In this document: one piece after another, positions 10,077 to 55,004 of the stretch
Layout: each line of letters begins with the position of its first letter
How positions within the stretch are numbered: position 1 is the first letter of the stretch
DNA from: Candidatus Hodarchaeota archaeon
Lineage (GTDB): Archaea; Asgardarchaeota; Heimdallarchaeia; Hodarchaeales; Hodarchaeaceae
Assembly (NCBI GenBank): GCA_016840035.1
Contig: JAEOTC010000038.1
Coordinates: forward strand, 1 to 64,000
DNA length: 64,000 nt
Reading direction: 5' to 3'
Made by a program: the position numbers and the translations under genes
The notes under the pieces: generated by a model
Told to the model about the DNA's origin: nothing
What the model saw: the letters and a program-made list of their open reading frames with translations, nothing else
Databases searched by the model: none

Positions 10077-10270
10077 TTTTATTCCACACGTATTCTACTA
10101 TTTGTAAAAGTAATTAATAATAATTCTAAAAAAAATTTCTTAATAATTATACTTACCTCCGAAGGCCATTAATTGAAAAAGATTGTTCCTTAATAGCAAG
10201 TTAAACCCAAGTTTTTACAAGAATCTTGCTGGTAGGATTAAAACAATACAATAATAAGTTGTGAGAATCA

Positions 10271-11419
10271 ATGAAAACACAATTATATGATTGGCATGTA
10301 GAAAATGGAGACATTGTTGACTTCGCAGGCTTCAAGATGCCTATAATGTACACTTCCATAATTGAGGAGCATCTAGCAGTTAGAAATACAGTTGGTATCT
10401 TTGATGTTTCTCATATGGGTCGAATGTGGATTCAAGGTGAAGATTCCGAGAAATTCCTTAACGTTCTAGTACCACGTGACCTCTCGAAAACCGCTGTAGG
10501 TAGAGCTTCCTACACCTTCATGCTTAATGAACAGGGGGGCTTTCGGGACGATTTAGTATTCGAGAGGGTTGATGAAAATAAATGGTTGCTTGTATGGAAT
10601 GCTGGAAACTATAGTAAAATAATACATTGGATCAATTCAAATTCAAAATTGATTCAAAATTTTCATAAACTTGATGTTTTATTTGAAAATATCTCTCAAT
10701 CCTCTGCAATGTATGCTTTACAAGGTCCTAAGGCAGAAACTCTCTTAAAGCGCGTTTTACCGGAAGATTTATCTCCACCCAAATCTTGGAGCATTTTACA
10801 AACGATGATTGACGGCTGTGATGTAATCATTTCCGGAACTGGGTATTCAGGAGAATCTGGATACGAAATAATTATTCTGAATACAACCAAAGCAGATAAT
10901 CAAAAAGCAGTCAAAGTATGGATGAAACTACTTCAAGAAGGCGCTGAATTTGCTATCAAACCATGTGGATTAGGGGCGCGTGATTCACTTAGATTAGAGG
11001 CAGGATATCATCTCTATGGAAATGATATCTCAGAAGATATTAATCCACACGAAGCAGAGTTATTTTTTCCCCCATTTATACATATGAACAAACCATACTT
11101 TGTAGGAAAATCTCAACTAGAAAATTTGAAGGATAAACCTCTTAAAAAAATACGTGTAGGTTTGATTTCTTTGAAAAAGGGTCCTAATCCCCGTCCCGGT
11201 TTGAAACTATATAAAGATGGAACGGAAATAGGTATTATTTCTTCTGGGGGCTTTTCTCCACTCTTGAATATCGGAATCGGAATGGGATACATCCTTCCAG
11301 AGCATAACACCGAGGGCACACTAATTCAGTTCCAAGTCAGAGAGAAAATGCATGATTTGAAAATTAAGAAATATCCTTTGTACGACCCAGATAAGTTTGG
11401 AAAATCACGGAAAGTATGA
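10271..11419 (+). CDS. gcvT: aminomethyltransferase (glycine cleavage T protein)
   Basis: VRNTVGIFDVSHMGRMWIQG, YSGESGYEII, CGLGARDSLRLEAGYHLYGNDI. Confidence 0.94.
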   Translation: MKTQLYDWHVENGDIVDFAGFKMPIMYTSIIEEHLAVRNTVGIFDVSHMGRMWIQGEDSEKFLNVLVPRDLSKTAVGRASYTFMLNEQGGFRDDLVFERVDENKWLLVWNAGNYSKIIHWINSNSKLIQNFHKLDVLFENISQSSAMYALQGPKAETLLKRVLPEDLSPPKSWSILQTMIDGCDVIISGTGYSGESGYEIIILNTTKADNQKAVKVWMKLLQEGAEFAIKPCGLGARDSLRLEAGYHLYGNDISEDINPHEAELFFPPFIHMNKPYFVGKSQLENLKDKPLKKIRVGLISLKKGPNPRPGLKLYKDGTEIGIISSGGFSPLLNIGIGMGYILPEHNTEGTLIQFQVREKMHDLKIKKYPLYDPDKFGKSRKV

Positions 11420-39106: not shown

Positions 39107-39210
39107 AAAAATATGTTGACCTTCGACTTCAAATTGTGAGTATAAATGGTGAAAAAGGAATCCAATTTGGATAAAATCTGTAAAATACCAACCAAACTCC
39201 CCAAAACAGA

Positions 39211-39286
39211 AAAAATGAAAAGAGATGCCGTTTAAACGGTAATCTCAATGCTTAGCTCACGTACCAGCTCTTTGTAGTGATATCTC
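39211..39286 (-). repeat. degenerate copy of TFB 3' end (copy 1)
   Basis: Minus strand reads ...RYHYKELVRELSIEITV* and then palindrome CCGTTTAAACGG; aligns with the end of the TFB gene at 53.99 kb. Confidence 0.8.
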
Positions 39287-39392
39287 CCTAGTAGGGTGAG
39301 GAATACGAAAACAAGAAGGAATTGAAGACTTCGTTTCCTCCCAAAGTATTTTGAATGATTACATAACTGATTCCAGTATTATCCGCTGACTG

Positions 39393-40253
39393 GTGAATGA
39401 TATGTGTAAATACTGCTATCAACACACTCGGAAAATGTGGTATCTCGAAAAAGAATCCTTTGATATTAGATCAGGTAGATTCATGAAAATATTGCCAGGT
39501 AGATTCAGAGAACTGTGGTATAATTTTTACGCTCCTAAGTTACAATCGTTTGTTGATGGAACTACTGGTGACATTGGAGCGAATCCTGATCGTGAACCGT
39601 ACAAGGGTTTACAAAAGATGTTTTACAATTATTTCGCAAAGAACTTTTTAGGTGGTCAGGTCGTTAGCTCCCTCGATGAAATGATGCAAGTCCTTGATCA
39701 AGCAGAAGATATTTTTGTTTCATATTGTTCTTGTAAAAAAACCGCTGGCGGGGGAGAAGATTATCGATGCCTTTTTCTTAATCACAACGCCCGATTTACT
39801 AGAAAACGGCAACTCCAAGGGAAAACAAACAATGAAGGACGTTTCATCGACAAAGATGAAGCAAAAGAAGTAATTCAAGAAAAACGTCGTTTAGGTCATT
39901 ATGGCACAGTTCTGTGGGGATTACGACCGAAAGTAGATTGCATTTGTAATTGTGACCAATATTGTGCGGGTTTATACACTCCCGAAATACGATGGGGATT
40001 ACTACCCTCCTTCACTATTTCTGTAATCGTCGATTCTGATAAATGTGATTCTGATTGTACAGTATGCCTTGATCTTTGTTACCCAAAAGCCATTACAAAA
40101 AATGAGGACGGATTAGTGACTTCAATAGATAATTATCTATGTATAGGCTGTAATCTGTGTGTTGAGAATTGTCCAAATGGAGTTTATGATTCTCAACCAC
40201 GTAAGATATATTATGACGCTTCTATTGGTAAAAAACGCGTATTAGAATATTGA
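39393..40253 (+). CDS. 4Fe-4S-cluster protein
   Basis: CDSDCTVCLDLCYPKAI and CIGCNLCVENCPNGVY; further Cys motifs (SYCSCKK, CICNCDQYC). Confidence 0.7.
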   Translation: MNDMCKYCYQHTRKMWYLEKESFDIRSGRFMKILPGRFRELWYNFYAPKLQSFVDGTTGDIGANPDREPYKGLQKMFYNYFAKNFLGGQVVSSLDEMMQVLDQAEDIFVSYCSCKKTAGGGEDYRCLFLNHNARFTRKRQLQGKTNNEGRFIDKDEAKEVIQEKRRLGHYGTVLWGLRPKVDCICNCDQYCAGLYTPEIRWGLLPSFTISVIVDSDKCDSDCTVCLDLCYPKAITKNEDGLVTSIDNYLCIGCNLCVENCPNGVYDSQPRKIYYDASIGKKRVLEY

Positions 40254-40290
40254 TGAAACTATAACAGAATGAGATAAAAACAACAAGATG

Positions 40291-40379
40291 AAAAAGAAAG
40301 GAGATACCGCCTAGACGGTAATCTCAATGTTTAGCTTGCGTACGAGTTCTTTATAGCGATTTCTCACGGTTACTTCGGA
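40291..40379 (-). repeat. degenerate copy of TFB 3' end (copy 2)
   Basis: Minus strand reads GFSEVTVRNRYKELVRKLNIEITV* followed by the CCGTCTAGGCGG palindrome and A-rich tail. Confidence 0.88.
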
Positions 40380-40469
40380 AAATCCGAACAGCTATGCAAG
40401 TATCTCAAGGGTAGAGAGATGAGAAGATAAAGTTTATAAGATCTGAAGACTCCTAGAAATAGGATAAGT

Positions 40470-41063
40470 ATGAAAAAAAATAACCGATGTCTTCTTCAGC
40501 TTGTCATTCTAATAGTACTTATCTTGAATCTAATGACAGGGTTAAAACTAATCCGAGGAGGAGAGATGAAAAGGGATCAACTCGTCCAAGTCGAATTATT
40601 ACTATTTCTAAAGGCTGTTCCCATGGAAGATTATCCTACAGCGGTTTTCAGTGGAATTGAAGACTATCAGGTTTGGACTGGAAATGTAACGGTCAATGGC
40701 TCAGTCGCTACAAATAATGACCTCAAAGAAGCAGTTGTGACCCTCAAAAATCGAACGTCAACATTTCTTCACACGAATTTAACGCTAACTAAAGATACGG
40801 ACTACTTAGGTCCGAAAAATCTAGCCTACTTATTCGAAGTAACACTTAATAGTAATGAATATCCAAATGGGTCGTATACATTGTTTTTTCATTTTCTAGA
40901 TACCAAAGGTGCCGGAATGATTTATCATTGGGACATCAGGATAGCTAATGCTTCAGATCATCTCTCTCCAGCAATAGGCCTCCCTCTGAGTTTCCTCACA
41001 CTGTTTTCTATTATTACCATTCGTCGAAAAGTTCCACGACTATTCAAGGAAGAGAAAAAATAA
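40470..41063 (+). CDS. secreted/membrane-anchored protein
   Basis: N-terminal signal-like hydrophobic segment; C-terminal TM followed by basic tail (IRRKVPRLFKEEKK). Confidence 0.5.
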   Translation: MKKNNRCLLQLVILIVLILNLMTGLKLIRGGEMKRDQLVQVELLLFLKAVPMEDYPTAVFSGIEDYQVWTGNVTVNGSVATNNDLKEAVVTLKNRTSTFLHTNLTLTKDTDYLGPKNLAYLFEVTLNSNEYPNGSYTLFFHFLDTKGAGMIYHWDIRIANASDHLSPAIGLPLSFLTLFSIITIRRKVPRLFKEEKK

Positions 41064-41124
41064 AGGAGAGAATACCTAGACGGTTATCTCAATACTAAGC
41101 TTACGTACAAGCTCTTTATAAATG
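41056..41124 (-). repeat. degenerate copy of TFB 3' end (copy 3)
   Basis: Minus strand reads IYKELVRKLSIEITV*, peptide identical to TFB from YKELV to the stop with synonymous differences. Confidence 0.85.
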
Positions 41125-41698
41125 GAGTTCTCAATCTTTTATTATGTACTTGCACTTCGGCATGATTTCAGTCAGTTTTGAATGAGAATCCTGAAAAGGA
41201 TATAGTGAGGAAATTTTTCAAATCACGAAATACTCCATTCTTATATGCGTGAAGGAGGGATAATTGAACATTTGTACTATTCTCCAATATATATAGGAAA
41301 TTATCCTGATGGGGACTGGAATGAATCATATGAGCTTCACGATTATATAGGGGGTTATATTATGGGTGGAATGAACCCCACATGGTATTTGCATCCTGAT
41401 ACAGAGAACAGAGTTTATAAAAATCTAGATCAATGGGATGGACCTATTTAATGATCTTTAAAAGAGAGCTCATTTAAATTTAAAAAAAGAGAATAATAAC
41501 TATAATTTGTAGGGTTAATTAACCATATGTTCACATTTCAAATACAAAATAGTTCTCGTGGAAATCGTAAAAATGTGTGATTAATGCATTATATGATAAG
41601 TATAAAAGCAAATAAAGGACTAGAAATTACTAGTTTTTTTCAGTTAACTGAAAAAAATAAGAATTCAGTAAAAAAGACTTGAATGAGCTGAAAACAAG

Positions 41699-42763
41699 AT
41701 GAAAAGGGGAAAAAGAGGATATTATCTATTATTAGTGAATCTGAGTCTGGGGTTATTACTATTACTAAGTGGATGCACGCTATTACCAACGAGTGAACCA
41801 GAGGAGATATTATCATTTGATCCAAATACTGCAACCATATATAATCCGAAAACAAACATTTCAGAGAGTTTTTATGTCAGGAACATGAACAGGAGTGGTA
41901 GTACTTTCTACCATGAAGATCAAATGAAAATTATAGTCGGAGTAAGAGATTCTAAAGGACTTCCAGGAGTAGCTGTGAATTTACATTTGAGAGTTATCTT
42001 TGACTGGTATGGAAATACAGATATTGTAAATTTAACAGAAGAATTCGGCCTCAAAATGACCACTAATCAATCAGGAGCGGTGTGTTTGATTTGTACATAT
42101 AATCAATATACATGGCCTCAAGGGTCTTATACCACTGAAGGAATACTTGAGATTTCTTCTTCTCAGCTAAATAATACAAGAGGATCCTCTGGAAAGCTAG
42201 ATTTTACCTATTATCATAAAGAAATCACACGAAATTCAACAGTAGAGGGGGGGATAGCAGTTATAAATGCTTTAGAAAAAATGAATCTGATAGAAGAAGC
42301 CAGTTTACTCGGTGGGGAAGACAACCTATACCCAAACTGGAATAGTCAATATTATGAATACTACGATATTAATCAAGTAATATTAAACCAATCTACCATT
42401 GAATTCTATACTAATTATCGCCAGCAACCAAGAGTTGAAGTCTACTATGTAGCATGGACAATCCTGTACGAAGAAACGAATTTAACATACAATATCATCA
42501 GAAATAACTGGAGTACATATATTGGGGAAGATTATGGATCTTTACTGATCAGTGATGAATATCTTGGAGAGAATTGGCTAATAACTGAACCAATCACAAA
42601 AGTAAATCTTACAACAGGTTGGTTAGTCATGCAAATTTTATATATTGATTCATTCCAAGAACCACTAAACGGTTGGACAAGAGTAGTTTATCAAGTTAGC
42701 CTTGTAACCATAGATATGCAACTTCGATGGTTATTATCTAGTTCCTTTACAGCAATAGCCTAA
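41699..42763 (+). CDS. putative lipoprotein, uncharacterised
   Basis: Signal peptide with lipobox-like LLLLLSGC, beta-rich extracellular sequence. Confidence 0.55.
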   Translation: MKRGKRGYYLLLVNLSLGLLLLLSGCTLLPTSEPEEILSFDPNTATIYNPKTNISESFYVRNMNRSGSTFYHEDQMKIIVGVRDSKGLPGVAVNLHLRVIFDWYGNTDIVNLTEEFGLKMTTNQSGAVCLICTYNQYTWPQGSYTTEGILEISSSQLNNTRGSSGKLDFTYYHKEITRNSTVEGGIAVINALEKMNLIEEASLLGGEDNLYPNWNSQYYEYYDINQVILNQSTIEFYTNYRQQPRVEVYYVAWTILYEETNLTYNIIRNNWSTYIGEDYGSLLISDEYLGENWLITEPITKVNLTTGWLVMQILYIDSFQEPLNGWTRVVYQVSLVTIDMQLRWLLSSSFTAIA

Positions 42764-42943
42764 AAATTCGGAATTAACTGAAGATACTTGAACTAAACAT
42801 TAATATGCGTGTTAACCGAGAGGACTGAAAAATTCCACATTTCTAGTAAGAAATCTTTTTTTTCCTTTATAGACTCGGGAGAATTGTTGAAACTGAAGAA
42901 TGAAACCTTGGATATGTGATTTAATCCCTTCCACCCAAAACGA

Positions 42944-43021
42944 GAAAAAAGAAAGGAAATCCCGTCTAGGCGGTAATTTCGACACTAAGTTTGCGTACGA
43001 GCTCTTTGTAGCGATTTCACA
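42944..43021 (-). repeat. degenerate copy of TFB 3' end (copy 4)
   Basis: Minus strand reads NRYKELVRKLSVEITA*; palindrome region CCGTCTAGGCGG on + strand. Confidence 0.87.
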
Positions 43022-43170
43022 AAGTAAGTTCATGTTTAGAATAAGAATACAACAATTAAGATATTTAATTGTTGAAAATCAAATCCTTCATTAATTCACT
43101 ATCGAATAGAAAATCACAAATAGGAGAGAGTAGATGTGAAATACGCTTCCTTTTGAGGGATGAGATAAAC

Positions 43171-44142
43171 ATGAATGATATAGAATTGCTGCTAGTTTTT
43201 GGTATTACAATACTCATTTCGTCAGGAATTACCTTTTTTATCCTCAGGTATTTCTTTGCTACACGACTGAAAGGTATAGAAAAATCATCTGATACAATCT
43301 CTAAAATATCTGAGGGAATGGTTCAACAATCTAATAGCTTCATTGATCTAATGAAAAACAGTCTTAATACGCTACAGACGGACGTAATGGGACAATTAAA
43401 AGAATTACGGGAAATGTCTCGGGATCTTCAGACTACTCAAAAAGATACTCAGAGCTCTTTCGAAAAATTTGTCAGTTTAGTACGTATGCGTCCCCAAACA
43501 AAAGGCGAAGTAGGAGAAGGTATCGTACGTTGGGTATTAAGTTCATTACCAGCAAATTCATGGAAAGAGCAAGTAACAATCTCCGGAGGACGGGTAGATT
43601 TTATAGTATATTTACCACCAGATCAAGAAAAAGTTCTCATTGATTCAAAATTTAGCTTTCCAACAGAATTATTAGAATCCGATAATCTAGTTGCTGCTGA
43701 CCAACAAACCATCAACAAAATTAATCGAGGGATAATCAAGAGAAGTAAAGAACTCGAGAAATATTTAGTCCCAGAGAATACAAATATCGGTTTTTTACTC
43801 ATGTACATTCCAGATATACTATTTTCCTACCTATCTGATACCACATTTAAAGAATTGACAGGGAAGAAAATTATTCCAGTTAATGTGTCAGGTCTTTTAT
43901 CAACTTTATTGATAATTTCCCGTCAAATTCAAGTATTTCGAATTGGCGAGGCTATTTCGCGTTTAGAATCAATCAAAACAACTTTCGACAGTGAAATTGA
44001 TGCTATTCAGAAGATAACTAAAACAAGTAAAGGTCAACTTCAGAAAGCACTCACAAACGTCGAAAAAATCGATGTTCAACTTGATTCCACTCGACGGAAG
44101 ATTTTTAGAGAGTTTGGATTAATTGAAGAAGAGAGTACTTAG
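43171..44142 (+). CDS. rmuC: RmuC-family protein
   Basis: N-term TM, coiled coil, KGEVGEGIVRWVLSSLP...GRVDFIVYLPPDQEKVLIDSKFSFP, GFLLMYIPDILFSYL; ATG at 43171 preferred over the 43069 start. Confidence 0.8.
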   Translation: MNDIELLLVFGITILISSGITFFILRYFFATRLKGIEKSSDTISKISEGMVQQSNSFIDLMKNSLNTLQTDVMGQLKELREMSRDLQTTQKDTQSSFEKFVSLVRMRPQTKGEVGEGIVRWVLSSLPANSWKEQVTISGGRVDFIVYLPPDQEKVLIDSKFSFPTELLESDNLVAADQQTINKINRGIIKRSKELEKYLVPENTNIGFLLMYIPDILFSYLSDTTFKELTGKKIIPVNVSGLLSTLLIISRQIQVFRIGEAISRLESIKTTFDSEIDAIQKITKTSKGQLQKALTNVEKIDVQLDSTRRKIFREFGLIEEEST

Positions 44143-44159
44143 GATTAAAGAGAAGGCTG

Positions 44160-44957
44160 GTGAATTTAATGAGTAATTTGAAAGATAAATCAAAAATTTG
44201 TCCATATTATCAAAAACCATGCTTATTAGAGAAGTGTCTTGCCTACAGTGGTGAGACTTGCCTAATTATTCCTTTGGGGAGATTAGAAAGGGAAACTACT
44301 ACAAAAGTGCCTGTAATCCTCAAGACTAAATCCATAAAAGAATTAGCAGAAAAACTTGCTGATTATTATTTGGAAAAATATCCCGATGGAGAAAATTATC
44401 GATATACTGACACTTCCCTTTTCTGGAGCAATAGAATTGGAGTGAAAGAAATCTATAACCTCCCTTCGGACATCCAAGAAAAGATTCAAGATGTGGAAAG
44501 ACTTGCAGAGGACATAACAGAAGATAGGAAAATCCCCGAAGAATTAAAGAGCCAAAAACCTGAGAAGATAGCAGAAAACATGGTCAAATGGGCAGAAAAA
44601 AATTTTGATATCACTAGATATGTATATTTTAGAAAATACTGGGGATCCAAAGGATTGCCCGAATCTTATTATTTTTCAGATAGATATCGGCCGAAAGCTG
44701 AAAAATGTGAGTTACTGGCTGAACAAAAATTAGAGGAAATTCGTGAAAAGAGAAAGAAGGAGAAAAAAGAGAAAGAGAAACAGCAAGCATTAGCTGAAAT
44801 CGATAATATCATTAAATGGTTAAAAGAGAAACGGTTGGTGAAGCTCTCAAAAGCGAATTTAAAGCTTTATTTTTCTGAAATAGGTATGAAGGTCTCTCCC
44901 ACTAATCGTCAGAATGTATACATAAGGGTAAATGAAATTTTAAAACAAGAAAAATAG
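44160..44957 (+). CDS. uncharacterised protein with N-terminal Cys cluster
   Basis: CPYYQKPCLLEKCLAYSGETC; K/E-rich helical C-terminus. Confidence 0.45.
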   Translation: MNLMSNLKDKSKICPYYQKPCLLEKCLAYSGETCLIIPLGRLERETTTKVPVILKTKSIKELAEKLADYYLEKYPDGENYRYTDTSLFWSNRIGVKEIYNLPSDIQEKIQDVERLAEDITEDRKIPEELKSQKPEKIAENMVKWAEKNFDITRYVYFRKYWGSKGLPESYYFSDRYRPKAEKCELLAEQKLEEIREKRKKEKKEKEKQQALAEIDNIIKWLKEKRLVKLSKANLKLYFSEIGMKVSPTNRQNVYIRVNEILKQEK

Positions 44958-45013
44958 GGGGCTAAGTGATAAAAGTGATAGACCTAGAAATTTATAGCGA
45001 TGGAGGGTATTAA

Positions 45014-45874
45014 TTGAGGAAAACTCGAAATAAGAGAAGTACAAGTTTACTATTAATTTATATTGCCATCAATCTTGGTTTAATTCTCCCAATGGGAGTA
45101 TCAAACGCACTAACCACGAATAGAACACAGAATGAATATACACGAACATTTACTTGTAATAAAGACGCGTATGTAGACTCTTCGAACCCAACTTCAAACT
45201 ATGCTAATGCAGATTTAGAGGTTTCAAACTCATCATATCGAGCAAGACGTTCTTATCTATCCTTCGAAATTCAAGACCTACCTTCAGATGCTGATATAAA
45301 AGAGGTAACATTCGGATTAAGCGTGAAATTCTTGCCTTATGATGACCATACCGTTCCATTAGATATTTGGAAAACAACTTACTTTGATGAAGATATCGTT
45401 ACTTGGGAAAATTGTCCTCAAAGAACTGTTCTCATGATACAAGTCGATATTGCTGAAAATAAACGCTGGAGCATTCCACTGGAAAACCATGGCATTACTG
45501 GAAATTTAAATCTCTATATTTGCTTATCCACCGATCTCGACAACTCTGCACCCATTACATTCGATTCTAGAGATGATATGTGGAATCCACCAAGAGTAGC
45601 AGTTACTTTCGAAGCATTATCCATCGATGAAAGTCCAAATGGAACAGTAGACTTAGTGATATTCCTAATTTTACTTGGTCCAATTGGAGGAATTGGATTA
45701 GCAATATTTCTAATGGTGAGAAAATCAAATAAGAGAAAAACAAGTTTTAGTATTGTATATCAAGAACCGAGAATTTCTCAAAAATCCGTAACTATAGACC
45801 AATTTTGTGGCCAATGCGGTGCTCCTCTGGATTCGACGAATGTTTTCTGTCCGTCCTGTGGGAAGAAACAGTGA
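45014..45874 (+). CDS. DNRLRE-domain secreted protein with TM and C-terminal zinc ribbon
   Basis: CNKDAYVDSSNPTSNYANADLEVSNSSYRARRSYLSFEIQDLPSDADI; TM; FCGQCGAPLDSTNVFCPSCGKKQ; start assigned upstream of ORF methionine. Confidence 0.7.
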   Translation: MRKTRNKRSTSLLLIYIAINLGLILPMGVSNALTTNRTQNEYTRTFTCNKDAYVDSSNPTSNYANADLEVSNSSYRARRSYLSFEIQDLPSDADIKEVTFGLSVKFLPYDDHTVPLDIWKTTYFDEDIVTWENCPQRTVLMIQVDIAENKRWSIPLENHGITGNLNLYICLSTDLDNSAPITFDSRDDMWNPPRVAVTFEALSIDESPNGTVDLVIFLILLGPIGGIGLAIFLMVRKSNKRKTSFSIVYQEPRISQKSVTIDQFCGQCGAPLDSTNVFCPSCGKKQ

Positions 45875-47036
45875 GGATATACTTCTTCGTGAGAAGTTAA
45901 AACTGGGTGAAATTTTGAATAGAACTAATCTCATGAAACTATTTCAGCTCGAGGATAACCAGGAAATTTTTGATTTAGCCCTTACTCCAAAATCGTGTGG
46001 TGGAGGTGACGAATTCAAACTTTTAGCCCTTTATGGGGATAAAATCATTGACTTAGCTCTGATCATTGATTTTTCAAATCAAGGATTCACAAATACGGGA
46101 GTAATCTCACCTGCTATTGATAGCTTTCATAATGAAGATGCTCTCAACGCACTAGGAAGATATCTAGAAATCGATCATTTGATGAATCCACTTGATAAAT
46201 CCAAACCGATCTCAGATGGTGATGTGAAAGAAGGAGTAGAAGCTCTTATAGGAGCAGCATATCAAAAACATGGATTAACCACATGTATCAAAATTGTTCA
46301 ACGTCTATACGAACAATCGGAATCTTTTTCTACAAAACCGGGAGAGGAAAAAGCTACTATCCTGACGGAAAACTTGGTAGGGATGTTACAAGAGTGGTTA
46401 GCAAGCCAAGGCCTTGGAATACCTGTTTATGAAGGGATACGAGTTGGAGGAACTAATGACAATCCATTATGGAGATGTCAAGTTTCATTTGAATATCATG
46501 GAGAAAAAGTCAAGGAGAAAAGTGATATTTTTTCCAATAAAAGACTCGCTAAGAAGAATGCAGCCCAGAAAGCATTGGTTGCATTAGGAATAAGGAAAGA
46601 TAATGTAAGCAGAGTTTTTGGGTCGATTCAGGAGGTGAAAATTCCTGAAACAGCAACTCAATCTCTCCAAGAACGAGAAATTCTCTTTACCAAAGGAGGG
46701 AGGGGAGGGCATTTTATCACAGGAGAGATACAACTAACAACTCAAACGGGTGAAACTGTCTTAGAATGGGCAGAAAAGAAGATAAAAAAGAATCCTTATG
46801 GAAGCTTGATTCTCCTAAGTGCACGTTTAGAGGAAATAAGTGGATCTTCTTGGTCAACTTCCTTGGAGGATCAGGAGCTAATTCTACTAAATATTGTTAT
46901 TGAAGACATGCCCTATTTTGAAATAGGAAAAGGAAAGTCAAAAACAAAAGCTAGAAAAGATGCTGCGCAAAAAATAATAAGATCATCTAATCTTATCAAA
47001 TGGATTGCTCAAAAATATTCAACCATACTAATCTGA
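45840..47036 (+). CDS. RNase III-like protein with two dsRNA-binding domains
   Basis: GGGDEFKLLALYGDKIIDLAL and DVKEGVEALIGAAYQKHG (RNase III); dsRBD1 TENLVGMLQEWLASQGLGIPVYEG...AKKNAAQKALVALG; dsRBD2 ending GKGKSKTKARKDAAQKII. Confidence 0.78.
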   Translation: MFSVRPVGRNSEDILLREKLKLGEILNRTNLMKLFQLEDNQEIFDLALTPKSCGGGDEFKLLALYGDKIIDLALIIDFSNQGFTNTGVISPAIDSFHNEDALNALGRYLEIDHLMNPLDKSKPISDGDVKEGVEALIGAAYQKHGLTTCIKIVQRLYEQSESFSTKPGEEKATILTENLVGMLQEWLASQGLGIPVYEGIRVGGTNDNPLWRCQVSFEYHGEKVKEKSDIFSNKRLAKKNAAQKALVALGIRKDNVSRVFGSIQEVKIPETATQSLQEREILFTKGGRGGHFITGEIQLTTQTGETVLEWAEKKIKKNPYGSLILLSARLEEISGSSWSTSLEDQELILLNIVIEDMPYFEIGKGKSKTKARKDAAQKIIRSSNLIKWIAQKYSTILI

Positions 47037-47041
47037 AAATG

Positions 47042-47128
47042 TAAAAATTAAGGAGATACCATTTGATTGGTAATTTTCATACTAAACTTATGTATGAGCC
47101 CTTTGTAGCGATTTACCAAGTAACTCCA
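47042..47128 (-). repeat. degenerate copy of TFB 3' end (copy 5, most diverged)
   Basis: Minus strand reads NRYKGLIHKFSMKIT (stop lost); same A-rich flank and palindrome position. Confidence 0.7.
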
Positions 47129-47374
47129 ATCACTGTTACTCGTTTAAGTCAGAAGGGTACAATATTTTCTTCCTGTGTGGAGAAACAATGGAAGATAAAA
47201 AAGTAAATAGCAATTAGCAAAAAAGGGAGAATTCTGTTGAGAATGTGGAAATTATGTTTTAAGATGGAGTTGAAGTAATCGCAAACAGAGAAGACCAGTT
47301 TAAGGGAGAAATATATTGATCCGTTTCCCGTACTCTTAGCATTAAGCATTCTACTAATTGTTATATATATAATA

Positions 47375-48115
47375 ATGCTAATTAATCCTTCAATTTATGA
47401 TCTACTAGAAATGAACAGATCAAATCCCTTTAGTATATTAACTAGTCTATTAATCCATGATCTAGATAATTCAGCACATTTAAGCGTGAATTTGGGGGCA
47501 TTATGGATTTTTGGTTATATTGTAAATATCCAGACAAATCGATTTCGAATGCTAATAACTTTCTTCGTATGTGGTGTATTAGCAAATATATCTACGGTGA
47601 TTTTTTCAGATTTAATAAACCACCTATTTTCTACTACATTCACAAATTGGGCTGTTTCTTCTAGACATTGGATCGGAGAGAATTTACGTGTTGTTCCATC
47701 ACCAAACGGAGGAGGAGCTTCAGACGGATTGATGGGGCTAGGAGGATTTGCTCTCGCTTTAGCTATTGACTTTTTAATTATTAATTTACATGAAGCTTAT
47801 AGAATCAGCCGTAATTCAACCAATAAATACCTAATAATACTAATTGATCGTCTGAATCAGTCAATTGTGGATACCTGTGTAAATTGTGTTGGGATTCTAG
47901 GAATTTTAGTTCTTTGGGCAGGATTAATTATGGATCTTGAAATGTTTTATTATGTTTTAACTTTTAATTACGCAGCAGCAAACGGAGAACTGTTATCTTA
48001 CCCGACATCAGACGGGCATCCGTTACTAGCCCATGCTTTTGGAGGATTGATAGGATTTATCATCGGGATCTATTATACTCGGTTCTTTCAAAAGGGGATA
48101 AGAAACTCCAATTGA
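47375..48115 (+). CDS. rhomboid-family intramembrane protease
   Basis: SAHLSVNLGALWIFGY, GGGASDGLMGLGGFALAL (GxS), HAFGGLIGFIIG; multi-TM. Confidence 0.72.
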   Translation: MLINPSIYDLLEMNRSNPFSILTSLLIHDLDNSAHLSVNLGALWIFGYIVNIQTNRFRMLITFFVCGVLANISTVIFSDLINHLFSTTFTNWAVSSRHWIGENLRVVPSPNGGGASDGLMGLGGFALALAIDFLIINLHEAYRISRNSTNKYLIILIDRLNQSIVDTCVNCVGILGILVLWAGLIMDLEMFYYVLTFNYAAANGELLSYPTSDGHPLLAHAFGGLIGFIIGIYYTRFFQKGIRNSN

Positions 48116-48185
48116 CATGAGAGTGAAATACAAACAAGAAAAAGATGAGGGGAATACTTTACTTTGGAAAGACTTCCAATCAAAC

Positions 48186-50042
48186 TCAGAAGGATTGGAA
48201 TCGGTTCCTTAAGACTGCACGAAGGTTTCTGAAAGAGCGAAACAGCTGCAAATTCGGAAGATGATGTTGATTGAACATGGCACGATTATCAAGAATTAAC
48301 CCTGTGGCTTGATCTACTTCAGAGCGAATAGCACGCCCCAAACACTGGCGGACCTGTGTGAAGAGATAGCGTTCTATTAACGTCCATTTAACAAAATGGA
48401 GATGACGATAACGGTTAAAATAGAGTCTATAAAGCAAATTGTACACCGGAGTGGGTGCTGGAAAGGGTAAGCCTATTAAAATCACCATTCGTACACGACT
48501 TCGGCCAGTTTGAGGATCTCGAACTTCGACTCCTTCACTAAACTTCCCGCCATAAACTGCAAGCACCACACTTGGGTCCCCATTCATTAATTCAGAGAGG
48601 AATGTAATCTGACCCTTTCTAGGTTCACGATAGAGAGACAGTTTTTCATTCAAATGCTCTTCTAAAAGTGGAAATAAGTCATCAAGAAACTCATAGGACG
48701 GGACAAAAACCCAGGTATGATCAGGAATTTCAAGTGCGACCTCCTTCACAGTTTTTGCACACCAACGCAGGAACTTCTTTGTACGATTACGATGAGAACT
48801 ACTCACCTGCGGATGAATAAATGCAGCCACAAGTAATTGCTGAATACGCGATTTAGGAGTAGGAACGTGGTGCAAATGGTACATATTCCACGGTTTTTTT
48901 TTTAATCCATAATAATGCGAGTAATATTTGAGATATTGAAAAGTGGCAGAAAACAGCACTGTCCGGGAGAACTGCCGATTCACATATTCAAAGATTTTCG
49001 ATGGATAGGGATCGAGTTGAACTAATCCTTCCTCCGTGTTCACCCAATATCGGCCTTGACGCTCAACAAAAGAGCGCACAGCCAGTAAAGCTTCTAGATC
49101 GAGAGGAGAAAGAGAATATCGAATACCTTTCTGATGAAGGAACGAATCGATTTGAGCTAGATAAGAACGATCAAGAGTTGGGGGACGTTTAACATACCCA
49201 TACTTTCGCTGGCATAGATTTTGCAGAATTTGCACAACAGGAAAAGCTCCGATTGACTCAACCAACGAAAGTTGTTTCCGAGTGACTGTAGCCTCTATTG
49301 TTGGCCCAAAATTGTGAGCTTCATCAATAATAGCGAATCTATGACTCCAACGAAAACCATAATCATGCGCTTTCCAGGTGAATCGAGACAGGGAGCGCTG
49401 GAGAGAGTGAGATTCCAAATATCCCTGCGGGAGTAATATAATATTAGCCTGAGGAAGCAAACGTCGGATGACTTGAGCAGGACAGCCATAGGGAGTGAGA
49501 AGCTCCTGAAAACCGGCAAATGATGAAGGACAGTGCTGGAGGGATATTTGAGGAAGAATCTCTCTTAGAGAGGATAACGGTAAAAAACGAGTTTTTTTCT
49601 TTCGAGGACAATGAAAACAGTCATTTTCAGGAGGTAAAGGACAGAGATCTTTGCTAGCGATCAAAGGAAGTAAGGTTAACTTGTCTGCCGGAGGGTTAGA
49701 GTAATATTCTTTCAGAGTTTTGAGAAACACTGATCTAAGTTGTGCTTTGGTTTTAGAAAAACACCAGAGTTGATATTCACCGGTCTTCATCAGATCCCAG
49801 AAGGCAGAAAACGCGGTGACGGATTTACCAAACCCAGTGTAGGCATTAATCGCAATTCGGGGATAAGCAGCAATTAAAGCTAGGACCTGTGCCTGACCAC
49901 GACGAAAGGAGGGAAAAGGAAAATGCTGGCGAATTTCAGGGGGCAATTCTTCATCCTTGAAAGACGAATGAGCCGCACCTGCTTTAAAAGCATCTGAATA
50001 ATAGATAAAAATTCCCTCAAGAAGGTTTTCCCGTATACACAT
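48186..50042 (-). CDS. divergent XPD/Rad3-like SF2 helicase
   Basis: Walker A INAYTGFGKS, DEAH box IIDEAHNF, Cys-rich insert (C..C..C), motif VI QVRQCLGRAIRSEVDQATGLILDNRA. Confidence 0.8.
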   Translation of the reverse strand: MCIRENLLEGIFIYYSDAFKAGAAHSSFKDEELPPEIRQHFPFPSFRRGQAQVLALIAAYPRIAINAYTGFGKSVTAFSAFWDLMKTGEYQLWCFSKTKAQLRSVFLKTLKEYYSNPPADKLTLLPLIASKDLCPLPPENDCFHCPRKKKTRFLPLSSLREILPQISLQHCPSSFAGFQELLTPYGCPAQVIRRLLPQANIILLPQGYLESHSLQRSLSRFTWKAHDYGFRWSHRFAIIDEAHNFGPTIEATVTRKQLSLVESIGAFPVVQILQNLCQRKYGYVKRPPTLDRSYLAQIDSFLHQKGIRYSLSPLDLEALLAVRSFVERQGRYWVNTEEGLVQLDPYPSKIFEYVNRQFSRTVLFSATFQYLKYYSHYYGLKKKPWNMYHLHHVPTPKSRIQQLLVAAFIHPQVSSSHRNRTKKFLRWCAKTVKEVALEIPDHTWVFVPSYEFLDDLFPLLEEHLNEKLSLYREPRKGQITFLSELMNGDPSVVLAVYGGKFSEGVEVRDPQTGRSRVRMVILIGLPFPAPTPVYNLLYRLYFNRYRHLHFVKWTLIERYLFTQVRQCLGRAIRSEVDQATGLILDNRAMFNQHHLPNLQLFRSFRNLRAVLRNRFQSF

Positions 50043-50817
50043 GAGGAGTCAAAGGTTTGGAAGCTTTTTTCTTCCTCTTTTTTGACCGAAATTCTCGAAA
50101 ATAACCCCTGAATTCTACCACTTGATCATAGATCTTGTGTGTCCACGAATTTTGCCAGAAACGAATCCGATGTTCTTTGTGTTTTAATTTCGTAATATAA
50201 CAGAAATAGGGAAAGGCCTCCCAGGGGTGGGTTTGAAGCAACTTATCGAGATCCCCACGAAGAGTAACGAGAAAACCCATCTGTTTAAAGGAAGCGAGGG
50301 TAGCAAAACCCCTCAATCCACTCGGGGGAAGAAAACAGGTATCATATCCGTCAAAAACTAAAGCTGTAAGCATAGGATGTCTAAGAATAGGTTTGAAAAA
50401 TTCACGGTCGAAACTCTTGGCAAATAAAGTGTGTTTATCAATTCGACTTAGATAAGAGGTGGGAAGTTGCTTTTGAGATCGGAAATTAAGGACACGAAGA
50501 ATACGTTGAACCTGATAATCCTCATTGAAATCGTAATACAAAATTTGCCATGGTTTTGGACTGCTCAAGAGGCAGGAGGCAACGAGTTGAGCAAGAAACA
50601 GGCTTTTTCCAGCGTTTTCCGGACCAGCAATGATAATGGGCCATTGCCAGAACCAGCCACCTCGCCATGTTCGATCCAAAGACTGTAAGTACGTAGGGAT
50701 CGGTTTACGTGGAGGAAGGGAACTATCGCACGGAACAGCATGTTTAATAACTTGGGATAACAAATCATCTAAAGACTCGGAGTCATTCCTAGATGAGAGA
50801 GGTTTTTGAGAAACCAA
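50017..50817 (-). CDS. RecA/RadA-superfamily ATPase
   Basis: Walker A IIIAGPENAGKS, Walker B-like ALVFDGYD; overlaps downstream helicase start by 26 nt. Confidence 0.65.
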   Translation of the reverse strand: MVSQKPLSSRNDSESLDDLLSQVIKHAVPCDSSLPPRKPIPTYLQSLDRTWRGGWFWQWPIIIAGPENAGKSLFLAQLVASCLLSSPKPWQILYYDFNEDYQVQRILRVLNFRSQKQLPTSYLSRIDKHTLFAKSFDREFFKPILRHPMLTALVFDGYDTCFLPPSGLRGFATLASFKQMGFLVTLRGDLDKLLQTHPWEAFPYFCYITKLKHKEHRIRFWQNSWTHKIYDQVVEFRGYFREFRSKKRKKKASKPLTPHVYTGKPS

Positions 50818-50912
50818 AAATATACACCTTCCATTTACTAGATATCGGGTTGTCCCCTTTTATATCTGAAAAGATCTAGAAAATTGGAAGAGGACCCAAG
50901 CTCAAGTACTTT

Positions 50913-50922
50913 TGAATATATA
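50913..50922 (+). promoter_or_regulatory. candidate TATA box for the 50.95-kb hairpin-rich leader
   Basis: tgaatatata(a), expected spacing would place transcription start near 50945. Confidence 0.3.
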
Positions 50923-50944
50923 AGGGAGGGGCAGAATCTAGTAC

Positions 50945-51830
50945 GGTTCTCTCTTTAGTACCATTCAGGCAGCTATAGTAGGTGAGAATTGTGAATGACC
51001 ACTCACAATGATCTTCACATACGTAGCGAAAAAGTGCTAGTCGCTAGCATTTGCCTTGCACTTGCTTAAAGAGGCAGGTGGATAAACAAACACGGTTGAA
51101 AACCGATGTTGGCAAGTGAAACACGAGAAAGTAAGAGGAAAACTATCCAGTTATGGCAAACTGGAAAATTTAGTCATATTTTGTTCGTGAATGAACTGGC
51201 CCTGTTTCCTCAGAAGAATCAGGTAGATAAGGTTCAAGAATCAGATCAATTAAACCTGGTTCAAGGTACGGATACGAAAACACAAAGAACGCGGAATCCG
51301 CAAAGACAAACAATAACCCCAATCCAATACCCACCAGTATACCCTCTTCAACTGGGAAATACTGGCCTTGTCGACTCTCCAAGGTGGATCGAGTCACACG
51401 ACAAGCAATTCTTTACGAAGGAAACGAAAACCCCACACGAAGGGAAAATGGAACAATACCCAAAAGAACAACACCAGCGTTTAATAACAAAACAACCATA
51501 TTCGACTTACACTCACGGTCAGGAAGAGACGCGGAAGTGTGTGTCAGTCAAGCGGAGTGTATCCACTCAAAACCATATCCAACTACCACGGGAAAGCATC
51601 CCTCCCAAGGGTGCTAGGCCTCAGAAGAGATGTGTCGTAAGACAGGTCTCTTCTGAGGATCCCACGAATATGGGCCCTTGTCATGGTGACATGACCAGGG
51701 TAGGTAGATACTCTACCCAAGGTGAACTGACGATGTCACAAACCAACCCTCTTCCTACGGAAGGAGGGGCGCAGGCCCCACTTCCTGACCGTGTCATCAC
51801 GGGGCAAAACGCCCCATGGCCGGTCGTCCC
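50945..51830 (+). ncRNA. candidate structured RNA leader overlapping the start of a LAGLIDADG-like ORF
   Basis: Dense perfect hairpins, incl. 12-bp stem 51619-51630/51647-51658 with an inner TGTC-GTAA-GACA (GNRA loop), and 51676-51699 with a GTGA GNRA loop; predicted translation of this stretch is non-globular. Confidence 0.45.
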
Positions 51831-53214
51831 CGAAGAGTACACCTTCCAGGAGGTGTCTCTTTGGGAGTTTACCAATCTCTATGTCCTGTTGGGCAAAGAC
51901 GATTGGATTACCCTGTCAACATTGTTGCAGGGAATCAATCTCTCGGCAATAAGTCGAGAGATTGGGATAGGCGTATCCGTCCTATCCAACATTCGAGAAT
52001 CCCCCGATCAAACGATCGCGGTGGCGAATCTCGAACATCTCTGCCACTATGCAGGGATGGATCTTTCACAGGTCGAGCGAAACGCGCGAGCGGTTCGTTT
52101 TTCTAAACGAGGTGACCTGGAGTACCTCAAATTTCCATTCGTCATGGATATTTATGCCTGGCGAGTCCTTTGTCACATTGCTGGAGATGGTAATGTGCAT
52201 TTTCGCAAGTATCCTGATCTCCGGTGGATTCAACTCCCCGAGCATCAGGATCCAATGCGGACTCTTCTATCCAATCTGAGTCGTGATCCAACAATTGATT
52301 ACGAACGGATGATATATCCTAAGACATTAGCTTATGCTATCTTGGGAACCATTCGAGGGATCACATTCCGTGACCTTCGGACCCCTTCATTCATACAATT
52401 TGTACTTGATTTACCCAGTCGCTATCGTGATTGGAAAGTACAATTCCTTGCCGCTTTCATCGTAGATGATGGATGTATTGGTGAGGACATATCTATTTCT
52501 CAGAAGGATGAACGAGTCCTTCGCCTCATCATGCAACTATGTGATCAGTTGGGATATGATCATTCCCCGCTATATCCAAGTAAGCGTGATGGAGTAAATA
52601 ACTTTCAGTTACGTCAGGAAGGAATTCAAGCCTTCTTATATGATGTAGCGCCCCTTTATGCACGTGATCCACTTCTAGGTCTCTGGCATAAGCATACACA
52701 ACTCTTAACTGTTGCTAGTTCTTTTTCTTCAGAAAGAAAACTAGATCAAAAGTTATCTGTTCATGTGTGCACCACTATCCTTCAGATTTTGGAGGATGGA
52801 ACTATCTATTCCACGGATGAACTGCGTGTTCATCCAGCTCTTCAAGTTTATCTTGAAGGGTACCCATCCTATGTTTTAAACAGAAGATTGGGAATTCTCC
52901 ATCGTTCTATGAATCTCATTCATGAGGACATCAAGAACAATGGAACCTCTTACCGGCCTAAACGCTGGTATGTTCCTCGTTGTACTACTTCAGAACACTT
53001 GATTCAAGTGTTTCATGCGAAGTACAACAATCGTGCTCATCCACAATCCTACAAACGTAGGAACATTACTTCTCAGATGGTAGAGGACGCCATTGAGGAA
53101 CTTAGTGCGCAGGGGGTCAAACCTAGTGCACTAAATGTCTCTCGTTTCATAGGGTGCTCGAAAAAGCAGCTCTATAAACGAAAAGACTTACGGGTGTACT
53201 TCATTGGTAAATGA
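51733..53214 (+). CDS. LAGLIDADG-like endonuclease with flanking HTH segments
   Basis: Two LAGLIDADG-like motifs VLCHIAGDGNV and FLAAFIVDDGCIG; XRE-like 'AISREIGIGVSVLSNIRE'; C-terminal HTH; SD aaggtga 5' of ATG at 51733 (ORF track begins at 51106). Confidence 0.65.
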   Translation: MSQTNPLPTEGGAQAPLPDRVITGQNAPWPVVPEEYTFQEVSLWEFTNLYVLLGKDDWITLSTLLQGINLSAISREIGIGVSVLSNIRESPDQTIAVANLEHLCHYAGMDLSQVERNARAVRFSKRGDLEYLKFPFVMDIYAWRVLCHIAGDGNVHFRKYPDLRWIQLPEHQDPMRTLLSNLSRDPTIDYERMIYPKTLAYAILGTIRGITFRDLRTPSFIQFVLDLPSRYRDWKVQFLAAFIVDDGCIGEDISISQKDERVLRLIMQLCDQLGYDHSPLYPSKRDGVNNFQLRQEGIQAFLYDVAPLYARDPLLGLWHKHTQLLTVASSFSSERKLDQKLSVHVCTTILQILEDGTIYSTDELRVHPALQVYLEGYPSYVLNRRLGILHRSMNLIHEDIKNNGTSYRPKRWYVPRCTTSEHLIQVFHAKYNNRAHPQSYKRRNITSQMVEDAIEELSAQGVKPSALNVSRFIGCSKKQLYKRKDLRVYFIGK

Positions 53215-53250
53215 AGTCACTCCCATTCCCTTCTCTTTTTTTTTCATAAC

Positions 53251-53838
53251 TCAAACTTGATACGGAAGACTAGTTTCATCAAGTTTTACGATCTCATTTC
53301 CACTAATTGACCATGAGAACCTCTCACATGCTTCTTTGAAAACAACATCTGTTACTAGAAAATCCAGAATTCCTGAATCTTTACTAGAATCAAGGATTTT
53401 AACTTTTTTCCTTCGGGTCCACTCACGAAGTATTTTGATATCCTCAGTTAACTCCATAAGTTTTTGGAGAATCTCATCAAGAGGACGACATACATCAATT
53501 GCATATTTAAACGAGATGTAAAAGTGAATTGGTGTGCGAAACAAAGAGACTGGAGATTCTTGAGTAAAATGGTTTTTAATGGAATTTTCCACAAATCTCG
53601 CATCTTGAAGAGAGAGGGGGTTTTTTAGAGATCGAGATCCGTCATTATTCTTTTTGATTTGCACAATTACTTCTTGAACGAAGTCCTGGTTATTTATTGA
53701 AGGAAATCCATCAAAAATTAGTCTTTTACTTGTAAAATCAGTATAGTTTATTTGTGTGTATCTATCCTTGATTGCAAGAGGTGTATCTGAATAATTTTGA
53801 TTTTTAATCTCATTAGGGTTTTGTTCATCTTCTTCCAC
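53251..53838 (-). CDS. uncharacterised protein
   Basis: 195-aa ORF, no family recognised. Confidence 0.45.
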   Translation of the reverse strand: MEEDEQNPNEIKNQNYSDTPLAIKDRYTQINYTDFTSKRLIFDGFPSINNQDFVQEVIVQIKKNNDGSRSLKNPLSLQDARFVENSIKNHFTQESPVSLFRTPIHFYISFKYAIDVCRPLDEILQKLMELTEDIKILREWTRRKKVKILDSSKDSGILDFLVTDVVFKEACERFSWSISGNEIVKLDETSLPYQV

Positions 53839-53990
53839 ATATTTACCTCCTTAGAGTCAATAAACGTGAAGGATTTTTAGAAACCCAAGTTCATTAGATT
53901 GTTAAATCCTAACAAAAAAGAAGAACATAATGAAATTAAGAAAAAAAGAATCCAAGCAATTATTATAATAAAAAAGAAAGGAGATCCCGT

Positions 53991-55004
53991 CTAGACGGTA
54001 ATCTCGATACTTAGCTTGCGCACGAGCTCTTTGTAGCGATTTCTCACGGTAACTTCGGTAACGTGAGCGACCTCTGATATTTCCCGCTGTGTCCGTCGTT
54101 CTCCGTTGATTATCCCGCTGATATAGATTGCTGCGGCTGCTAGGCCGGTTGGGTCTTTTCCTGCTGTCAATCCTCCGGCTTTTGCGCGTTTTAGGATTTC
54201 TGCGGCTTTTCGTTGACAGACTCCTGATAATCGTAATTCTGTCCCAAACCGTACCAGATAATCTATGGGGCTTGCGAGGGGGATATTCAGGTATAATTCC
54301 CTGAGTAATAAGCGGTAACATCTGCCCAGTTCTTTTTTTGTGATTCGTGATTCTTTTGCGATCTCATCGAGTGTTCTGGGTACCCGGCGTACGCGTGCGG
54401 ATGCATAGATGGTTGCTGCGACCATCGCTTCTATGGAGCGTCCTCGTACTAAGCGTTTTTCTATGGCTTTTCGATAGATTATTGCTGAGGTTTCTTTTAC
54501 ATTGCGTGGTATTCCGAGTTGTGAGGCTAATCGATCCATTTCTGACATGGCGAATGCCAGATTTCTATCCATTGAGCTATGGACTCTTGTTCGTATTTGC
54601 CATTTTCGTAATCGATAGATTTGTGCTCGTCGTGAGGCTGTGAGTTTGTTGCCAAACGTATCTCGGTTTTCATATCCTATAATTGTTGATAAGCCTTTAT
54701 CATGTACTGAAAATGTGCTAGGTGATCCTACACGACTGCGTTTATCGCGTTCTTCGCTATTGAACGCACGCCATTCGGGTCCTTCATCTATTAATCGTGT
54801 TTCCAGTACGTAACCACATTTTTCACAGATTAGTTCGCCTCGATTTTCGTCGGCGACGATATCTGTGGATCCACAGTTTTTACATTCGAGGATTTCTTCC
54901 TCATCATCTACCTGGCCTTTTTTCTGTGGTTTTGCTTTTGCTTCTTTCATAAGTGCCATTCCTGAGCGTTCCTTCTCAAACTTGTGATTGCCTGGTCGGG
55001 GCAT
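53991..55004 (-). CDS. tfb: transcription initiation factor B
   Basis: Zn ribbon ECKNCGSTDIVADENRGELICEKCG, EWRAFNSEERDKRSRVGSP, cyclin repeats, C-terminal HTH TQREISEVAHVTEVTVRNRYKELVRKLSIEITV. Confidence 0.96.
   Translation of the reverse strand: MPRPGNHKFEKERSGMALMKEAKAKPQKKGQVDDEEEILECKNCGSTDIVADENRGELICEKCGYVLETRLIDEGPEWRAFNSEERDKRSRVGSPSTFSVHDKGLSTIIGYENRDTFGNKLTASRRAQIYRLRKWQIRTRVHSSMDRNLAFAMSEMDRLASQLGIPRNVKETSAIIYRKAIEKRLVRGRSIEAMVAATIYASARVRRVPRTLDEIAKESRITKKELGRCYRLLLRELYLNIPLASPIDYLVRFGTELRLSGVCQRKAAEILKRAKAGGLTAGKDPTGLAAAAIYISGIINGERRTQREISEVAHVTEVTVRNRYKELVRKLSIEITV

Follow-up and report, generated by a model that had tools for sequence, protein, structure and literature searches.

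A predicted chain of hairpins along the message of a LAGLIDADG-like nuclease gene, within an array of TFB 3′-end repeats in a Hodarchaeota genome

The described systems closest to the locus reported here are free-standing LAGLIDADG homing endonuclease genes, relatives by fold of I-DmoI; the phage T4 homing endonuclease genes I-TevI, segB and mobE, whose ribosome-binding sites are sequestered in hairpins (PMC2988022); the RNA phage MS2; archaeal integrons and clusters of attC sites lacking integron integrases (CALIN arrays) (PMC9668308); and elements of the tRNA-gene type, which insert at the 3′ ends of genes and restore the end they displace. The locus lies in the window G000:C184:1-64000, the whole 64,000-nt stretch analysed, which was taken from a Candidatus Hodarchaeota genome of 4.3 Mb in 293 contigs. 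It comprises a + strand gene for a 493-aa protein with helix-turn-helix (HTH) and LAGLIDADG-like parts (coding sequence 51733-53214), the leader of this gene, and an array of direct repeats derived from the 3′ end of a gene for a TFB (TFIIB-type) paralogue. The genomes were draft metagenome-assembled genomes, and all RNA structure was predicted.

The coding sequence was predicted to fold as a chain of hairpins throughout. Relative to shuffles of the gene's synonymous codons, which preserved protein and codon usage, positions 51733-53211 folded at −541.8 kcal/mol vs −346 kcal/mol (z about −15.5), and positions 51778-53211 at −522 vs −332 kcal/mol (z −15.5). Against dinucleotide shuffles z was −11.7 for 51733-53211. 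All thirds of the coding sequence were affected (synonymous z −10.4, −6.1 and −8.7). Folding thus lay far beyond that of shuffles along the entire coding sequence by either measure, as in genome-scale ordered RNA structure (GORS). For comparison, z was −15.2 for the replicase gene of MS2 in the same synonymous test. The window gene is like MS2 in this equal effect and in needing no single conserved fold; unlike MS2 it is DNA-encoded, chromosomal and archaeal, and it was the only such gene in the genome sampled.

The other window genes scored, covering those up to 44957, had synonymous z values of −1.8 to +1.7. A single block, 51001-53200 (+), stood out when the whole window was scanned in 120-nt windows: its running means fell as low as −5.1, the mean for the window being −0.27. 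Composition-corrected scores over running windows of 780 nt were −4.83 at 51541-52320, −3.18 at 52441-53220 and −1.19 at 50761-51540. The first two values ranked at the top of ∼1.17 Mb of the same genome (∼670 kb with the window included plus 503 kb, ∼27% of the genome), where the next-best place reached about −1.3. The densest structure comprised the coding sequence and ∼190 nt upstream of it. An initial annotation of the window, made from its sequence, had described a hairpin-dense leader ahead of the gene; the leader is unusual, but this description was too narrow, the coding sequence being more strongly structured in the 780-nt scores.

Sense minus antisense stability in the coding sequence was −90.6 kcal/mol, compared with 1.7 ± 11.8 kcal/mol in shuffles, and inner G-U pairs within long helices numbered 30 in the sense and 10 in the antisense strand. 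The bias and the G-U excess together indicate the RNA level. The antisense strand was also strongly folded (z −8.7), and the window coding sequence was the one gene with strong strand bias.

The start region was strongly folded as well. A Shine-Dalgarno-like AGGTGA and an ATG were located at 51720-51735 (+), and the surrounding 90 nt folded at −28.7 kcal/mol vs a mean of −11.5 kcal/mol in 154 other open reading frames (ORFs) with ATG starts. The most likely start of the conserved protein is 51733, since tblastn detected homology from about 51778 onwards and the start of the G007 homologue aligns with 51733; this bears out the preference of the initial annotation for the Shine-Dalgarno sequence and start at this place. 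In the G011 homologue both candidate Shine-Dalgarno sequences, GAGGAGG and GAGGTG, lay within hairpins. These stable hairpins resemble those of the T4 genes, with the difference that the phage hairpin covers the start site whereas in the present gene the entire coding sequence is folded too.

A profile search of 227 genomes of the phylum located four full-length family members, counting the window gene (51106-53214 as an open frame), together with remnants, all in one genus and in records named Candidatus Hodarchaeota and Heimdallarchaeota. By motifs and fold the protein is LAGLIDADG-like, at modest strength, in agreement with the initial annotation. Motif 1 (WRVLCHIAGDG, 52159-52191, +) contains Asp152 and motif 2 (QFLAAFIVDDG, 52441-52473, +) contains Asp245 and Asp246; these acidic candidate active-site residues are invariant in the four homologues. 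Pfam matches to LAGLIDADG_3 were weak (two of the four members, best 5.9e-4), with no Pfam LAGLIDADG match for the window protein alone, and HTH_26 was likewise a weak Pfam match. The top Foldseek matches were to I-DmoI (probability 1.00, E 5e-3), obtained with a low-confidence model (pLDDT, the predicted local distance difference test, 58). A sequence profile search of the PDB with the protein returned nothing, as did scans of viral contigs for homologues, and no Rfam or Pfam match was obtained to RuvC or HNH domains or to known guide RNAs of the HEARO/IscB or TnpB type. Judged from the comparison of the window and G011 genes, the protein is under purifying selection (nonsynonymous divergence, dN, 0.46; synonymous divergence, dS, 2.3; third-position change in excess).

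The gene is thus like free-standing LAGLIDADG genes in its motifs and invariant Asp, in its patchy gain and loss, in the apparent invasion of the end of a conserved neighbour gene and in the remnants left in relatives. It is unlike them in the extra N-terminal HTH and C-terminal parts of a divergent protein with no PDB sequence match, in a message folded throughout and in the array of displaced TFB ends.

Synonymous z values of the homologues were −5.1 (G011), −3.6 to −4.1 (G007) and −0.1 (G001). In 329 kb of G011 the top-ranking regions at long scale were all at the nuclease locus, and included a 61-aa orphan ORF (L007:9310-9492; L007 is the G011 locus) with synonymous z −4.6. A single conserved fold across homologues was rejected: 42 of the 477 pairs of the window coding sequence were shared with G011, pairs were retained after changes at about control rates, and the hairpins of the coding sequence were not conserved across species. 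Foldedness overall, and not the individual hairpins, seems to be conserved. The proposal in the initial annotation of a structured RNA separate from the ORF was not supported, the coding sequence being the most structured part and its hairpins unconserved. Folding as a general trait of LAGLIDADG_3 genes was also rejected (30 loci of the phylum, mean z −0.3, lowest −3.3); the other LAGLIDADG_3 genes of the phylum lie mostly inside long host ORFs and are probably inteins.

The TFB paralogue (53991-55004, −; named from its protein sequence) has the apparent insertion site at its 3′ end. It is 94-99% identical in G009, G002 and G007, and the other genomes of the genus held TFB paralogues of 48% identity or less only, at E <= 1e-60. 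The parent of the repeat family is the 3′ end of this gene with a terminator-like hairpin (53967-54056, written on the + strand, encoding VRNRYKELVRKLSIEITV-stop on the − strand). Five truncated, directly oriented copies, each consisting of the last ∼60 nt of the gene and the hairpin, were located on the + strand with an nhmmer profile that includes the same window copies it scores: 47040-47121 (E 7e-16; 74% by blastn), the most decayed copy and the distal border of the nuclease segment; 42941-43031 (3.7e-23); 41050-41132 (8.7e-18); 40285-40376 (3.9e-25); and 39208-39292 (2.8e-21), the outermost copy seen. Coding for the C-terminus of TFB (..YKELVRKLSIEITV-stop) is retained in most of the copies, which differ from one another by synonymous changes. 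The outermost copy adjoins a zinc-ribbon gene which also borders the array of G002.

The cargo between repeats differs, consisting of a 4Fe-4S protein, two proteins that matched nothing in Pfam, a group running from RmuC to an RNase III-like protein, and the nuclease segment, in which genes for rhomboid, helicase and ATPase and a 195-aa ORF accompany the nuclease gene. Folding as a general property of the inserts was rejected, the scored insert genes at 39393, 41699, 43069 and 44160 being without excess. Across the genus, the array loci of G000, G002, G009, G011 and G008 contained repeat copies, and one further match was obtained in G003. The G002 array has the same borders, different cargo and no nuclease gene. 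In G009 there is one repeat besides TFB, and the nuclease gene is reduced to its last ∼29 codons, which stand shortly ahead of a repeat. In G008 a decayed nuclease-gene end lies ∼180 nt before one repeat, with another near the contig end.

The layout of 39208-54056 is integron-like, and related arrays with other cargo were found at L190 (G002), L191 (G009), L007 (G011) and L010 (G008). The 85-95 bp direct repeats, the small variable inserts and the occurrence in Asgard genomes are shared with integrons and CALIN arrays. The differences are that the repeats are truncated TFB 3′ ends, that the array is anchored on TFB, and that the window array has neither integrase nor attC core motifs. PF00589 matches were obtained on contigs C174 and C244 only, with none on C184; the motifs RYYYAAC and GTTRRRY were absent in six of six window copies and sporadic elsewhere, by a motif check rather than a covariance pipeline. 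With no integrase on the contig and no core motifs in the window copies, the array was therefore not classed as an integron. Displaced ends standing as direct repeats downstream of an intact gene are a likeness to elements integrating at gene 3′ ends; in contrast to the tRNA-gene type, here a gene for a protein (TFB) is the target, and none of the scanned insert proteins was recognised as a recombinase.

The best explanation, to which a probability of roughly 0.45 is given, is a free-standing homing-endonuclease-like gene that repeatedly invaded the TFB 3′ end within one genus of Hodarchaeota, its mRNA being shaped into a chain of hairpins because foldedness was selected. The choice among synonymous codons would be the main means by which the transcript acquired its continuous local hairpins, and selection would act on the entire mRNA, not on one particular fold. 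The likeliest effect would be to throttle translation, slow decay, or both; throttled translation is suggested by the position of start sites and Shine-Dalgarno sequences inside hairpins. A potentially toxic nuclease could thereby be kept at low, controlled levels. The nuclease would cut near the TFB 3′ end, the invading unit would carry a replacement end, and older ends would remain as the array.

Several observations weigh against this explanation. The G001 homologue, which lies away from TFB, has no folding excess, so that folding is not required for the protein family, and the other LAGLIDADG_3 genes of the phylum are without such folding. An ORF at 53251-53838 separates the nuclease gene from the TFB repeat. 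Strand bias is weak in the G011 and G007 homologues, and the small G011 ORF that accompanies a leader element is hairpin-dense with no strand bias. Given this weak bias, and its absence from the leader and the small ORF, a DNA-level contribution is possible.

It was unexpected that one chromosomal gene should show predicted folding of its whole message as strong as that of an RNA phage. If this folding is selected, a selfish DNA element would be shown capable of adapting its coding sequence from end to end to RNA structure. The TFB 3′-end array suggests an integrase-free route to variable gene arrays in Asgard archaea, with the homing nuclease as candidate driver. Whether the two features together define a class of Asgard selfish elements, with a folded nuclease message under selection of RNA-phage strength and an integrase-free array built from displaced TFB ends, is doubtful, and the class is put forward tentatively.

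The leader begins with a TATA-like box of the nuclease gene (TATATAAG, 50917-50924, +), recognised already in the initial annotation; transcription would be expected to start ∼25 nt downstream. A similar box (TATAAAAG) precedes the G011 homologue at L007 ∼10168-10175. The leader was rightly described as GC-rich (44.8% vs 36.7% for the whole window), and its hairpin density exceeds chance: 50925-51735 folded at −261.9 kcal/mol vs −201.6 ± 10.8 kcal/mol in dinucleotide shuffles (z −5.6). The hairpins listed in the initial annotation are present, with one correction: GCGGA-a-TCCGC was written with a 1-nt loop but forms a stem of 4 bp and a loop of 3 nt. They include CGGTT-gaa-AACCG (51093-51105), TCCAGTT/AACTGGA (51146-51165), GAGTG-tatc-CACTC (near 51556), CCTTGTCATG-GTGA-CATGACCAGG (around 51677-51699) and GGGTAG/CTACCC (about 51699-51719); GGGGC-aaaac-GCCCC (51802-51816) lies already within the coding sequence. 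The longest of the leader, CCTCAGAAGAGATGTGTC/GACAGGTCTCTTCTGAGG (51619-51658, +), spans 40 nt with an outer stem of 12 bp, an inner stem of 4 bp and a GTAA tetraloop, and is the most regular stem of the locus.

A hairpin-rich part of the leader, 51106-51732 (+), is free of stops in the frame of the gene. It had been dismissed as protein in the initial annotation. It is unconserved as protein except for a short stretch at a covarying element, and no homologues aligned through it, homology beginning near 51778. None of 4000 dinucleotide shuffles left the frame open (0.008 for the G011 counterpart); being open far beyond chance, it may well be translated, and it could give an extended product. 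Against synonymous shuffles its z was −5.2, and strand asymmetry was not strong.

The covarying element is a stem-loop with tail at 51362-51452 (+), ∼90 nt long, with two further copies in G011 (L007:9168-9262 and 10572-10662). Five pairs were changed on both sides, as counted in three sequences, which are few; differences were flat over codon positions, with third-position changes not in excess. The check for covariation called for in the initial annotation was thus positive for this element and negative for the hairpins of the coding sequence. No further convincing copies were found in 12 genomes of the genus, three strong matches being the total, and beyond the ∼90-nt element the leaders of homologues could not be aligned. 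Within L007:9115-9495 the 61-aa ORF of G011 follows the second leader element; this ORF forms consecutive hairpins (dinucleotide z −9.8) and has a Shine-Dalgarno sequence of its own. A Zc3h12a-like NYN ribonuclease gene (L007:9588-10085) lies between the two G011 copies.

Other origins of the folding were weighed. A DNA-level origin, from inverted repeats made by template switching or quasi-palindrome correction or by selection on the folding of one DNA strand, is suggested by the strongly folded antisense strand (z −8.7), by the lack of strand bias in the leader and the small G011 ORF and by a locus that is recombinationally active. The large sense bias of the coding sequence and its threefold inner G-U pairs are not expected from Watson-Crick palindromes, and the four scored insert genes showed no excess, so that this origin is considered unlikely, although single-stranded DNA folding, in which G-T is better tolerated than A-C, would be compatible with the G-U bias. 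A serious rival, if an improbable one, is that foldedness of the GORS type protects the message from RNA-targeting systems. In animal cells, viral RNA with GORS is less readily recognised (PMC3950689). The window gene is folded to the same degree as the MS2 replicase gene, hairpins turn over while overall folding is kept, as expected if only foldedness counts, and the NYN RNase gene adjoins the G011 nuclease gene. Against such protection, no Piwi protein was found in 12 genomes of the genus, in a search outside which type III CRISPR and other RNA-targeting systems lay; evasion of Argonaute was rejected on this result.

The leader could instead be a discrete functional RNA working with the protein, either an intron remnant or a guide-like nuclease RNA, as the initial annotation had supposed. 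Its folding (z −5.6) and the one element that covaries in three copies are in line with this idea, which is nevertheless highly unlikely: scans with Rfam 15 gave no match at gathering scores and, at E up to 5, nothing credible among introns, ribozymes and nuclease RNAs, the leaders are unalignable outside the ∼90-nt element, structure is stronger in the coding region, and the leader frame is open beyond chance. Least credible is that the hairpins are substrates through which a nearby RNase III-like protein (45807-47036) processes the message. This protein has a weak RNase III domain besides a double-stranded RNA-binding motif (1.4e-11) and is encoded ∼4 kb away on the same strand as the nuclease gene; most stems are of 6-12 bp only, and relatives occur in most genomes of the genus and in other families of the class that have no nuclease gene.

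Some neighbouring genes were recorded in addition. The RNase III-like gene sits inside the array, and its relatives are widespread in the class. In the nuclease segment, divergent from the nuclease gene, 48186-50817 holds overlapping genes for a helicase (Helicase_C_2, weak DEAD_2) and an AAA-type ATPase, a possible defence pair. In G009 (L191:3325-3953) and G008 (L010:3177-3933) the same site next to TFB holds VapBC-like toxin-antitoxin pairs; among these pairs and their relatives, a PIN domain was recognised by Pfam only in the G002 relative (L190:3195-3608).
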